Of a DNA stretch of 33,227 nt, positions 8,093 through 11,874 are shown piece by piece. This DNA comes from Mycobacteriales bacterium (GTDB taxonomy: Bacteria > Actinomycetota > Actinomycetes > Mycobacteriales > QHCD01). The stretch is from positions 1 through 33,227 of the forward strand of contig DASXJE010000091.1 of NCBI GenBank assembly GCA_036497565.1, read 5' to 3'. The translations under genes and the position numbers were made by a program. The notes under the pieces are model-generated. The model was not told the DNA's origin and made no database searches. It saw nothing but the letters and a program-made list of their open reading frames with translations. The stretch's first letter is position 1; each line of letters begins with the position of its first letter.

Positions 8093-10018
8093 TCACGTGA
8101 GTCGTTCTGCTCCGGCCCGAGCGTCGGTCGCCCCATCGGCCTGCGGAGTCGTATCGGGGTCGCGCAGGGTGGCCAGCACGACGCTGCCGTCCACCGTCTC
8201 CTCGACAAGCAGGAGATCCGCGAGGCGATCGAGCGCCGCACGGTGGGTCTGAAGCAACGTGAGCGCGGTCTGCTCGGCTTCTCGAACCAGGCGCGCGACC
8301 TCCTGGTCGATGACGCGCTGCGTGCCCTCGGAGTAGGGATGGCCGAGTATCTCTTGCCCGGAGCCCGCGGAAGCTGATGGATCGGAGTAACTCACGGGGC
8401 CGAGCTGCGTGGAGAGGCCGAACTCGACGACCATTCGGGTAGCGAGTTGGGTAGCTCCGAGAAGGTCGTTGGCAGCGCCGGTCGAGCCCTGCCCGAGCAC
8501 GATCAGCTCGGCCGCGCGACCACCCAACTTCACTGCTAGCGCGTCTGTCAGGTAGTTCTCGGTATACAGGTGGCGCTCGGCCTCGGGTAGCTGCTCGGTG
8601 ACGCCGAGAGCCATGCCTGCCGGGAGAATGGTCACTTTGGCCACGGGGTCGGCATTCGGTGACAGCGCCGCGACCATCGCATGACCGGCTTCGTGCACCG
8701 CCACGGATCTCCGTTCCTCGGGCAGCAAGGCGTTGGATGCGTCGCGTCGGCCGAGCAGCGCCCGGTCGCGGGCCGCATCCAGGTCGGCCGCGCTTATCAC
8801 GGCACGGTTGGCCCGGACGGCGTTGATGGCCGCTTCGTTGAGCAGGTTGGCCAGATCGGCGCCGGAAAATCCGGGCGTCGCCCGGGCAACGCGGTCGAGA
8901 TCGACGTCGGGCGCGAGCTGCTTGTCGCGGGCATGGACCGCCAGGATCGCGGCTCGCTCCCGCTGGGTCGGAAGGGGCACCACGACCTGCCGGTCGAAGC
9001 GACCCGGCCGGAGCAGAGCAGAGTCGAGCGTCTCGGGCCGGTTGGTGGCGGCGAGCACGACGACATCGGCCTCGTCGTCGAATCCGTCCATCTCGCCCAG
9101 CAGCTGGTTGAGCGTCTGCTCGCGCTCGTCGTTGCCACCGAAACTGCCGCGACCGCCGCGCCGGCCACCGATCGAATCGATCTCGTCGATGAAGATGATC
9201 GACGGCGCGCGCTTGCGTGCCTCGGCGAACAGGTCCCGCACTCGAGATGCCCCGACGCCGACAAAGAGTTCGACGAAGCCTGACCCGGTGATCGAGAGGA
9301 AGGGGACATCGGCCTCGCCCGCGACCGCGCGGGCCAGCAACGTCTTACCGGTTCCCGGCGGACCCACCATGAGCACCCCGCGCGGGCCGACCGCGCCGAC
9401 CTTTGTGTATCTGTCCGGAGCACGGAGGAAGTCGACGACTTCGGTGATCTCCTCCTTCGCGCCCTCGTATCCGGCGACATCGGCGAAGCGGGTCTTCGGG
9501 CGCTCTACGTCGGAGATCTTCGCGCGTGAGCGACCGACGCCGCCGATCCCCCCGGCAAACGAACGACGAGCGGCGCGACCGGACCAGACGAACAGTCCGA
9601 GGATGAGCAGCAGCGGCAGGAAACTGAGCAGGATGCCGAGCACGGAAGAGTCGCTCTTCTGTGTGCCGGTGATCTTCACGTGGTGGGTGAGCAACGCACT
9701 CTGCAGATCGTTCGTCCCGGTCGTCAGACTCGTCGGAATCTGGCTGGTGAACTGCTTACCGCCGCTCAGCGTTCCGGTGACGGCGCCGTGATTGTCGATG
9801 GTGACCGAGGTGACATGGTTGGCGTTCACACGGTCGAGAAGATTGCTGTAGGTGAGCTCTTGCGGTGTGGTGCCGCGGGACATGGCCGGTATCAACAGCA
9901 GCAACGCCGTGATGAACAACCCGATCGGCAGCAGCCAACGGCGCCACCCCGGCGGTGGGGGCGGAGCGGGCTTCGGTGGGGTGTCGCGTGGTGCGCCCGG
10001 TGTTGCAGAGCGGCTCAT
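8093..10018 (-). CDS. ftsH: ATP-dependent zinc metalloprotease FtsH
   Basis: This 641-residue membrane AAA+ protease degrades membrane and short-lived cytoplasmic proteins as a hexamer. After a proline-rich start, TM1 is at about 28-45 and TM2 at about 126-144, with a small extracytoplasmic domain between. The AAA domain has Walker A GPPGTGKT (219-226), Walker B IIFIDEID (274-281) and the second region of homology [20 protein letters not shown] (324-343). The protease site is HEAGH (442-446) with the third zinc ligand D518 in [12 protein letters not shown]. All catalytic residues are present. GAGGGG lies upstream of the ATG. The short C-terminal tail and the lack of the usual hpt/folE/folP neighbours suggest it may be an additional FtsH copy, but the rest of the genome is not visible. 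Confidence 0.95.
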
Positions 10019-10400
10019 GATGACGCACCCCTCGCCCCGACGTGACTCTCAGCGGCGCGGCTCGGAGGCGCCCCCTGGGAACGGAGCGTATACCGGAGCA
10101 TGGTTGCATTCCCCCTTCTTGCCGGAGAGGGCCCACGTGTACAGCGGACGCTCGGTCACGCCTCCACGGCGGCGAGTGATCAGGGCTGGCGGTCGCCGTT
10201 GCACCTCCGTTGCCGTTGACACGGCCGCCCAGCCTCGGCACGATCGATGCACGGCGTTGCCGACGCCCAGCCTCCTGAGGACCTGCCCCAGCCGAGCCCT
10301 CGAGAAGGCGAAGGGAATCCTGCTCTCAAGGCTGCTGCCATCCAGGCCTGCTTCGAGTGCCGCTTCGCTGGGGGAATGGGGCACGTCGAGGAGGCTTGTC
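10019..10400. other. Divergent intergenic region between ftsH and the APH-like gene
   Basis: These 382 bases hold no convincing gene. An open frame on the minus strand across 10049-10423 has no ribosome site, is arginine-rich and overlaps the start of the APH-like gene, so it was not called. On the plus strand TTGACA at 10216-10221 is a possible -35 for the APH-like gene, but only a poor -10 (CACGAT) follows after 17 nt. On the minus strand TATACG at 10092-10087 could be a -10 for ftsH without an obvious -35. Confidence 0.4.
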
Positions 10401-11519
10401 ATGACCAAAGAGGGCAGTTTCAAGCGCGCAGTGCGTCAGCGGGCACAAGCGACCGGATTGCGGTACACCGAGGCCCGCGCCGCGCTGGAGAAGGGCCGCA
10501 CGTCGCCGTTTGCTCGGACTCGCCCCGTCGAGTTCGCGGAACTGAGAGCGCACCTCGAGACGCGATACGGCATTAGCATCACCTCGATCGCGCCCATCGA
10601 CGACGACCCGGAGACGCGGCCACGCGGGTCCTGGGTCGGCCACTACCCCTGGACGCTGGTCGTCAAGCGAGAGGACGGCTCGCCCTGGATCGCTCGAGTC
10701 TTCTCGTCGGCAGCGGACACGGTCGGCCGCGTCGAGGGCGATGCGGAGATCCTGCGGTTCCTGGCCTTACAGGGCTTCCCCGCCGAACGGCCCGCGCACG
10801 ACAGTCCCGTGTCGGTGCTCGAGGGCAGCGGCGTGATCGTGACCGAGTACGTCGAGGGCGGACGCCCGACCCAGTCGCCGGCGGTGCTCCACGAGCTGGC
10901 GAGCCTGCTCGGCCGCCTGCACAAACTGCCGGCGGCCGGTGGTGCGGTCGCGCGGGACGGAGGGTCGGAGGAGCACGACGGCGCCTACTTCGCGGGACGA
11001 CCGAAGCAGGATCTCGCGGCGGCGATGAGCTTTCTGGTGAGCGTCGAGGACGCCGTCGCTCCCGAGGGTCGCGAGATGTTCGAGTGGCTCCGCGACAAGG
11101 TCGAGCACGCCGACGACGCGGAAGGCCTGCCCGAGGCGTTCACCCACGGGAACTACCACGCATGGGCGGCCGTCGGCAGTCCGGGCAACCTCGCCATCGT
11201 CGGCTGGGCAGGGTCCGGGCGCGGACCCCGCCTGCCCGCCCTCGCCTGGCTGCTGACGACCGCCGGGGAGGGCGATGGGGAGGGTATCGACGCTGCCGCG
11301 CGCGGGTATCGCGAGCACGTTCAGCTCACCGGTGAGGAGTTCGAGCGGCTGCCCGGCGTACTGGCCATGCGACCGCTGTGGCTGGCGTGCCTCGACTACC
11401 GGCAGTCGGCGCGCAACGGGCTCACCCCGACGATGGACGAGGGGTGGATCGGCTGGCTCGCGCGCCCCGAGCACGCCGAACGACTAGCTGCCCGGGCGAT
11501 CGCGTCGTTGCAAGGCTGA
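10401..11519 (+). CDS. Aminoglycoside-phosphotransferase-fold protein with degenerate catalytic residues
   Basis: A 372-residue protein of the APH/choline kinase-like family. Residues 1-30 (SFKRAVRQRAQATGLRYTEA) form a small helical N-terminal tag. The kinase N-lobe includes PWTLVVKREDGSPWIARVF and EGDAEILRFLALQGFPAERP. The hinge is GVIVTEYVEGG, followed by LHELASLLGRLHKLP. The catalytic loop reads HGNYHAWAAV (249-258) where HGD-x4-N is expected. The metal-binding segment reads IVGWAGSGRGPR (266-277) where V-[IV]-D-W is expected. The catalytic aspartate, the loop asparagine and the metal aspartate are therefore all replaced, so phosphotransfer is unlikely. The ATG at 10401 has GAGGAGG 6 nt upstream; an upstream in-frame extension lacks such a site. 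It lies divergent to ftsH. A binding or regulatory role is inferred. Confidence 0.82.
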   Translation: MTKEGSFKRAVRQRAQATGLRYTEARAALEKGRTSPFARTRPVEFAELRAHLETRYGISITSIAPIDDDPETRPRGSWVGHYPWTLVVKREDGSPWIARVFSSAADTVGRVEGDAEILRFLALQGFPAERPAHDSPVSVLEGSGVIVTEYVEGGRPTQSPAVLHELASLLGRLHKLPAAGGAVARDGGSEEHDGAYFAGRPKQDLAAAMSFLVSVEDAVAPEGREMFEWLRDKVEHADDAEGLPEAFTHGNYHAWAAVGSPGNLAIVGWAGSGRGPRLPALAWLLTTAGEGDGEGIDAAARGYREHVQLTGEEFERLPGVLAMRPLWLACLDYRQSARNGLTPTMDEGWIGWLARPEHAERLAARAIASLQG

Positions 11520-11601
11520 GTCGCGCGCTGCTCGCGCTCTGCGTCGCAGCCATCTACTACGCACGTGGACGCAAGCGGTAAACAGGCTGGTGTCATACGG
11601 A

Positions 11602-11874
11602 CTAGCCGACGCCCTCATCAGAGGTGAACAACCGTGCCAGCATGCGGTCTTGACTGTCCACAGCACTGAGATGGGTCGCCGCGACATGTGAGAGCCAGAC
11701 GGCCGCGCGCTTATAGGCGTAAAGCAACTCGCCGTCCTGCGGGTGCCCTGCCTCGTCCCAAGCGTCCGCCGCCACATGAAAGTCGGCCTCCGCCTGATCG
11801 AGATGCTCACGAGCCCGACGCACTTGCCAGCGCTGCGCCTCGACTCTGCTTAGGTAAGCCTCTGATGCGCTCAT
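11602..11874 (-). CDS. Small helical hypothetical protein (90 aa)
   Basis: The sequence is almost wholly predicted alpha-helix (EAYLSRVEAQRWQVRRAREH, DQAEADFHVAADAWDEAG, ELLYAYKRAAVWLSHVAATH). It has no cysteine, signal peptide or membrane segment, so it is probably a cytoplasmic helical bundle. No family was recognised. GGAGG lies 6 nt before the ATG at 11874, which is good support for a real gene. It is convergent with the APH-like gene (82-nt gap). The 190 bases upstream, to the tRNA gene at 12065, show no other gene. Confidence 0.7.
   Translation of the reverse strand: MSASEAYLSRVEAQRWQVRRAREHLDQAEADFHVAADAWDEAGHPQDGELLYAYKRAAVWLSHVAATHLSAVDSQDRMLARLFTSDEGVG

Follow-up and report, generated by a model that had tools for sequence, protein, structure and literature searches.

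Autogenous ribosomal protein leaders place a cis-acting RNA beside the gene of an RNA-binding product, and kissing-loop riboswitches such as that for cobalamin make a loop–loop contact near the ribosome site. The locus analyzed here resembles the former in that a cis RNA lies beside the gene of a possibly RNA-binding product, and the latter in its loop–loop contact. It differs from autogenous ribosomal leaders in that the RNA and an N-terminal peptide are joined to many unrelated proteins and that no Rfam family matched, and from cobalamin-type riboswitches in that the leaders scanned had no Rfam match and are tied to a protein module. The encoded protein shares its fold over approximately residues 41–372 (Z 17–23) with the APH/choline-kinase-like family (PF01636; AmiN, homoserine kinase, APH(9), and APH(2'')) and retains the HxD-loop His and the Trp that follows the metal site, whereas its own family has lost the catalytic Asp, the metal Asn, and the D-W Asp and carries an additional N-terminal hairpin. 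The superfamily offers a precedent for conserved catalytic loss—in the excerpts of PMC2860764, five classes of the spore kinases YtaA/CotS lost the catalytic Asp yet are conserved, and a non-catalytic role is inferred by the authors—although those proteins are a spore-coat family of endospore formers and the likeness here is one of fold (2q83, Z 20.1). The RiPP cyclases TvaE and RosX, in the excerpted text of PMC12291118, also combine a kinase-like fold with missing canonical catalytic and Mg residues, a precedent for such folds acquiring other chemistry; they act in RiPP pathways, whereas the present gene stands alone and carries a leader RNA and an N-terminal module.

The window, the whole 33,227-nt stretch that was analyzed, contains on its forward strand an ORF at 10401–11519 (ATG start, TGA stop) with a product of 372 amino acids. 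The same frame is open further upstream, up to a GTG at 9852, and protein conservation among aligned relatives begins at the 10401 ATG. The unit sits between an FtsH gene (opposite strand, 8093–10018) and genes for tRNA-Met and tRNA-Asn; a small ORF of 90 amino acids without a Pfam match (11605–11874, minus strand) adjoins it. A role in anti-phage defence was rejected, as PADLOC models returned 0 families for the four proteins scanned (E ≤ 0.01). The gene would form a self-contained expression unit in which a promoter and a folded leader RNA precede the coding part, itself composed of a helical hairpin of 31 residues at the N terminus, a linker, and an APH-fold domain, with the following features:

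10216–10221, plus strand: −35 element TTGACA, with GTTGACA kept in 23 aligned clade A leaders; family conservation starts here.
10239–10244, plus strand: −10-like CACGAT after a 17-nt spacer, mostly of the CA[GC]GAT type in aligned leaders; putative promoter element.
10252–10400, plus strand: structured 5' leader RNA of ~149 nt, supported by covariation; it matches covariance models R1 (141.6 bits) and R2 (9.3e-29) by construction, being part of both training sets.
10253–10267, plus strand: P1 hairpin GGCGTTGCCGACGCC (helix 1, with 96.6% of cells paired across 34 leaders).
10286–10292, plus strand: loop L3, CCCCAGC, perfectly complementary to L4, with which it covaries from leader to leader.
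10367–10373, plus strand: loop L4, GCTGGGG, at the tip of the hairpin that precedes the start codon, covarying with L3.
10388–10394, plus strand: Shine–Dalgarno (SD)-like GAGGAGG, its 3' part paired in consensus helix 6 and the whole paired in the lowest-energy fold.
10401–10493, plus strand: N-terminal module, residues 1–31, a basic helical hairpin (profile A6, 1.5e-14 in its own genome, with the window row included in A6).
10527–11516, plus strand: APH-fold pseudokinase domain, approximately residues 43–372 (Pfam 89–304; VIA-align ranges ~41–372).
11145–11168, plus strand: degenerate catalytic loop HGNYHAWA, residues H249–A256 (translation and family alignment).
11196–11207, plus strand: degenerate metal segment IVGW, residues I266–W269 (translation and family alignment).

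Relatives of the protein fall into two clades, A and B, and are found in 6 of 394 genomes of the class (its own genome counted), in 27 of 38 Kribbella genomes (where the G410 match is a relative without the module, L048, and L037 is start-incomplete), and in 4/4 genomes of another genus. Three named Kribbella species carry relatives at 87–94% identity, and two MAGs filed as Binataceae at 73–74%; the latter (L005, L006) hold the full unit, which may reflect horizontal transfer or mis-binned contigs. Among the rows listed, the clade A unit (six Kribbella genomes and the window) has DNA in common from the −35 box (~−187) to about the stop codon at 82–95%, and most clade A pairs show no other match longer than 150 nt within 4 kb. 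G395 and G429 match slightly beyond the stop, up to +1228, and the contigs of G396 and G397 stop soon after the gene, so that their downstream sides are not comparable. Some clade B copies share a common location (G408, G419, G418, and G431). As judged by comparing these flanks, the pseudokinase unit is one that moves between genomic locations. A transposon with defined ends was set aside, since no terminal repeats were noticed by eye at the clade A unit edges. Searches of plasmid and phage collections with the window protein (tblastn) gave no match, and an IMG/VR match (L007) that covers 50 residues at 36% was not accepted as a homologue. One genome also carries a truncated second copy 37 kb from its full gene (L049, G415:C1:1026059–1026250), consisting of an intact leader and the first 64 pseudokinase residues followed by 18 other residues and a stop.

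In clade A, the 150 nt preceding the ATG are approximately as conserved as the gene itself, and their core is also found in clade B. A consensus on 34 leaders comprises 38 pairs, 16 of them changed on both sides, with 97.2% of cells able to pair; cells changed on both sides numbered 102, compared to 31.0 in shuffles that ignore relatedness (0/500 as high). Pairing falls to 36–49% when partners are slid by 1–3 columns, a control that keeps relatedness, although the structure was derived from the same alignment. Changes on both sides were particularly frequent in helix 7 (8/10 pairs), and further pair types in the alignment did not rise above shuffles (98/500 as high). Single leaders fold no better than shuffles (z −0.53, −1.37, and +1.12), and therefore no single predicted fold should be taken literally. 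None of the 4227 models of Rfam 15 matched the leader in the window (9900–11700, E ≤ 10), and at E ≤ 1 none matched any leader at 15 plus 20 further loci, ruling out a known Rfam RNA on every leader scanned. Comparison among relatives shows the leader to be a real structured RNA, with a predicted loop–loop (kissing) helix.

By eye, many of 23 leaders share one order of elements: a GGCG...CGCC-type hairpin, a CCUCC-type stretch, the L3 hairpin, GGAGG-C-RAAGGG, the L4 hairpin, the SD, and the ATG. In leaders read this way, the GGAGG-C-RAAGGG stretch can close on CCUCC; the CCUCC/GGAGG part is absent in L166, L174, L183, L137, L138, L214, and L215, among others. The lowest-energy fold of the window leader pairs AGCCUCCU with AGGAGGCU of the SD, whereas the consensus fold pairs GCCU within the leader; thus, two exclusive pairings are possible, which might constitute a natural switch (SD occlusion being derived from pseudokinase leaders alone). 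A helix between the leader and codons 3–8, plausible in close relatives, was dropped, as the pairing is not kept by eye in L029 and L051.

The loop–loop helix carries much of the comparative evidence. Very different module genes have a hairpin loop 28–49 nt before the start and its exact 7-nt complement in a second loop ~95–146 nt before it, in eight sequence variants, of which three are main ones—GCTGGGG/CCCCAGC, GCGTGAG/CTCACGC, and GCGTGGG/CCCACGC. Across all 122 entries, 4 of which repeat an already counted leader, these loops were accompanied by their own complement in 44/58, 20/20, and 19/26 cases, respectively; complements of another class occurred 8 times, and 21 entries had none of the words. 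With one entry per 70% cluster, chosen blind, the corresponding figures were 13/14, 8/8, and 11/14, with 4 complements of another class in all and 10/45 clusters without any of the three words. At 60%, clusters held loop and complement in 23/32 cases, the loop only in 2, and no listed loop in 7; own complements (23/25) far exceeded those of another class (3/50; Fisher 5.8e-14), though representatives here were picked preferring the complement, making the 70% table the fairer one. The enclosing stems behave similarly: P3 is 88% paired compared to 50% with partners swapped among genes, and P4 80% compared to 41% (0/2000 swaps as high). As a control, only 4/265 loop words at −38 have their complement.

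A later test set was taken from other classes of the phylum (25 of the 33 places listed). A listed loop occurred in 16/25, 13 of these 16 with its own complement, alongside 4 other-class complements; the remaining 9/25 places lack a listed loop, and one of them (L246) lacks a readable gene there. A scan that accepted any 7-mer pair with stems, whatever its sequence, within the same range of positions recovered 16/25 places in the later set and 57/84 in the discovery set (53/78 class places, from 79 of 87 class module places read, L210 being too short upstream, and 4/6 plasmid places), compared to 32/6000 random background positions, taken in the window and beside related loci rather than in later-set genomes. 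The scan also returned pairs that had not been sought. In the later set, these were GCGCGGG/CCCGCGC (three places) and GTGCGAG/CTCGCAC (one); in the discovery set, they were GCGCGAG and ACTGGGG (two places each) and GCGTGGA (one). Those occurring a single time could be chance. Together, these comparisons are strong evidence that the loop pairing is a tertiary contact under selection.

Immediately downstream lies the N-terminal module. Its two helices appear in models of two unrelated proteins—at residues 3–18 and 22–34 in the pseudokinase (mean pLDDT 56–61), and at residues 3–18 and 22–33 in an AHSA1/DUF4287-type protein modeled from a 31-row alignment (pLDDT 78–91, with residues 35–41 under 50). 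In codons 2–31, pN is 0–0.06 compared to a pS of 0.04–0.30, which argues that the peptide is constrained and not the RNA alone. Three example modules have net charges of +5, +8, and +6, which fits nucleic-acid binding, and the module may resemble ribbon-helix-helix antitoxins. The module profile matched 59 of 394 class genomes (87 places, E ≤ 0.001) and, at E ≤ 0.0001, 30 of 396 phylum genomes, 25 of them outside the class; in the window's own genome, the pseudokinase is its sole match. One module peptide, searched against plasmids, found 21 records, 17 from Rhizobium, Sinorhizobium, or Phyllobacterium, with 15/21 places annotated as carbon-nitrogen hydrolases; phages gave no match. Six of the 21 plasmid places were examined, and on Sinorhizobium, Rhizobium, and Microvirga plasmids (L134, L135, and L139) leader loops and module stand before hydrolase genes, all three of these alphaproteobacterial loci carrying the GCTGGGG/CCCCAGC pair. 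The alphaproteobacterial plasmid copies suggest transfer between phyla.

Leader and module recur together. Model R1 found matches in 32 of 38 Kribbella genomes, namely the pseudokinase leaders, a single further strong match (L095), and weaker places (28–44 bits) in 19 genomes, one each; of 6 weak places examined, 5 precede a carbon-nitrogen hydrolase starting like MTAHRNFKRRVRARAAKTGESYTAALRHF, an N terminus of the same kind as that of the pseudokinase, MTKEGSFKRAVRQRAQATGLRYTEARAALE. Model R2, trained with weak R1 places too and run with stricter filters at which weak matches are lost, found 30 places in 26 of 394 class genomes. A module gene follows the leader at 30/30 of these: six belong to the pseudokinase family, one being the broken G103 copy, and the other 24 each precede a further module gene (in L128 and L131, the module begins at an in-frame ATG inside the automatically chosen frame). 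The two parts also occur singly. The sixth weak R1 place (L096, G424:C2:906589–906736) has a leader directly before a hydrolase gene without the module, and at L095 (G419:C33:461306–461454), a clade-B-like leader precedes a gene for a UvrA-like ABC ATPase that likewise lacks the module; in the same genome, the leader of the pseudokinase gene (L038) has been lost. Because these two places lack the module, and the clade B genes L038 and L040 have lost their leader wholly or for the most part, neither part is strictly dependent on the other.

The proteins behind the module are diverse. Pfam identified CN_hydrolase, DUF2087, BtrH_N with DUF4872, AHSA1 with a weak DUF4287, Pup_ligase (4.6e-88), Epimerase, and KH_2 in 22 other module proteins, with DUF1835 and FtsK_SpoIIIE below cut-offs and several proteins without any model. 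Over module residues 1–31 of these 22 proteins, no Pfam model gave the best stretch, bar a chance-level Adeno_terminal (E 0.11, from residue 27). BLAST linkage of the 122 entries minus their first 30 residues yielded 16 groups, that is, 15 and the truncated copy L049. The Pup_ligase-family fusion (L221, G572:C11) lies outside the class, and its listed loop word has no exact complement. From this distribution, leader and module very probably form one conserved unit that has been shuffled before unrelated proteins. We know of no system of this leader-plus-peptide kind. Neither leader nor module is described in the open-access PMC literature as searched, and the text of a survey of structured-RNA candidates (PMC2864571) contains no mention of carbon-nitrogen hydrolase, phosphotransferase, Kribbella, or nitrilase. 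On these negatives and those from Rfam and Pfam, the cassette would be a new kind of system. The structured leader and common module are the most unusual part of the locus, and an earlier note on this DNA, made from the sequence alone, saw neither.

Among module proteins, the carbon-nitrogen hydrolases comprise 26 distinct sequences (41 entries, many at duplicated places; e.g., L097–L101, L109–L117, L134, L135, and L139). Nitrilases canonically place their catalytic Cys in a Cys-Tyr-Asp motif and also have a Lys site. In segments found by pattern, the module hydrolases have Gly at the expected Cys in 22/22 readable cases and YDER at the Lys site in 24/24, and a PDB search with one of them (phmmer) gave no match. 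They look like pseudo-nitrilases. A second Met at residues 34–42 in 15 of the 26 may represent an older start codon before which the cassette was inserted.

The best explanation of the locus as a whole is, in our view, an autoregulatory cassette driving a non-catalytic kinase-fold domain, to which we assign a probability of about one half. The leader would set translation by varying how open the ribosome site is, its last helix covering part of the SD and the CCUCC stretch being able to pair with the SD or, alternatively, within the leader. The basic module, generally translated from a leader-bearing mRNA, would bind the leader and feed back on its own synthesis; such binding is proposed because the two are co-inherited and the helices are basic. 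The dead kinase domain may keep a ligand or partner pocket and gate the feedback, or it may be a non-catalytic effector of controlled dose. That module–leader feedback is the reason for the cassette has, we judge, slightly under even odds. More tentatively still, the cassette could represent an undescribed cis-regulatory class of Actinomycetota and some Alphaproteobacteria, in which a kissing-loop leader and an RNA-binding peptide are shuffled as a 5' cassette, so that varied proteins, including two or more enzyme folds devoid of catalytic residues (the pseudokinase among them), would control their own translation, with the downstream domain possibly acting as a sensor.

Alternatively, the leader might be a small-molecule riboswitch, and the module a separate tag (for targeting, turnover, or partner docking) hitchhiking beside the start codon. 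A compact kissing-loop fold before the ribosome site suits a riboswitch in general, functionally unlike targets could answer to one common signal, and L095 and L096 retain the leader without the module. However, this leaves unexplained why the same peptide follows the leader at every R2 place, and the leaders scanned lack an Rfam match; we consider it unlikely. Less probable again is an action on the ribosome, in which the nascent basic helix and the mRNA fold would tune or stall early elongation under stress, for example from ribosome-targeting drugs. In favor of this, the genes read encode the module N-terminally, directly behind the leader, and the CCUCC stretch resembles the 16S anti-SD; by contrast, no conserved upstream ORF was seen by eye in the aligned leaders, and the module folds as a helix pair in a finished protein model.

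Returning to the cassette reading, we examined the domain that it would drive. The earlier note had proposed an APH-type fold, altered at three catalytic positions and kept for a non-catalytic function; the fold and the alterations were confirmed, and the retained non-catalytic function was supported. Pfam assigns APH (PF01636) to residues 89–304 at E 2.4e-12 (47.5 bits, the cut-off being 23.2), and an AF2/AlphaFold model from a 34-row alignment has a kinase-like fold (pLDDT 81.4, pTM 0.79). Superposition with VIA-align gave Z 23.3 to homoserine kinase 2ppq, 21–22 to the amicoumacin kinase AmiN, 20.1 to the YtaA/CotS-family spore kinase 2q83, and 17–20 to APH(9) (spectinomycin) and APH(2'') kinases, the Foldseek and VIA-align rows covering residues 36–372 and thus barely including the module. 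The window protein had no NCBIfam match, and phmmer found no PDB match for it.

Within this fold, the catalytic Asp is replaced by Asn251 (HGN for HGD), the metal Asn by Ala256, and the D-W Asp by Gly268 (GW for DW). We counted these positions in 35 module-bearing rows, window included, after excluding duplicates (L002, L003, L004), a fragment (L049), a 5'-incomplete row (L037), and a broken one (L012). Position 251 is N in 35/35; position 256 is A in 17, H in 13, and S in 5, with a 2-residue insert making the 13 clade B rows uncertain here; and position 268 is G in 22 and N in 13. The rows span Kribbella genomes and two MAGs (73–95% identity) and a second clade at ~42–46%, so that the case in which orthologues keep intact motifs and the window copy alone is changed did not hold. 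The corresponding motifs are H[GS]N[YF]H.W[AS]A and GWAG in clade A, and HGNL[LM]HAP and INW in clade B. L048, the relative without the module, has D, N, and D at the three sites, and from this and the wider family we infer an active ancestor. Ten pairs gave dN/dS of 0.11–0.24, that is, purifying selection. Because all rows share the losses and dN/dS is this low, the loss of catalytic residues is old and retained. By these comparisons, the window gene is a conserved pseudokinase rather than a product of decay, predicted to lack phosphotransfer. Two unrelated enzyme folds therefore seem to sit on the cassette without their catalytic residues, which fits domains kept for binding.

There is a slim chance that the kinase-fold domain is an enzyme after all, with a different catalysis of the RosX and TvaE kind. 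TvaE, which in the excerpts of PMC12291118 also lacks canonical kinase residues, is the best PDB sequence match of the family profile (E 1.9e-5); however, that match is partial (profile 158–333), the unit stands alone and its surroundings differ from copy to copy, visual inspection of the large ORFs closest to it at 12 loci (several of which had none called) showed no obvious RiPP set, and the module-bearing hydrolases lack their expected catalytic Cys as well. An atypical active phosphotransferase that uses other residues is very improbable—some pseudokinases keep activity, but here other residues stand in place of the catalytic base, the metal Asn, and the D-W Asp alike. Simple decay of an APH resistance gene, a process for which the broken G103 copy (L012, L017) and the startless L037 show that loss does happen, is ruled out by the shared losses, open frames, and low dN/dS of the 35 rows.

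Neither leader nor module matched Rfam 15 or Pfam as searched, and, whether or not the feedback idea is right, the leader is by its covariation a candidate for a new RNA family. If the cassette reading is true, one RNA fold and one 31-residue peptide would act as a portable control element for many proteins in a phylum in which antibiotic producers abound, and would provide a common handle on proteins whose roles are unknown, including DUF1835-, DUF2087-, and DUF4287-type proteins, BtrH-like proteins, a Pup-ligase homologue, dead-looking nitrilases, and the pseudokinase. The pseudokinase would then be one payload among these, its kinase-fold domain kept for binding, and the cassette would offer a test case for the spread of RNA–protein regulators by 5' fusion.
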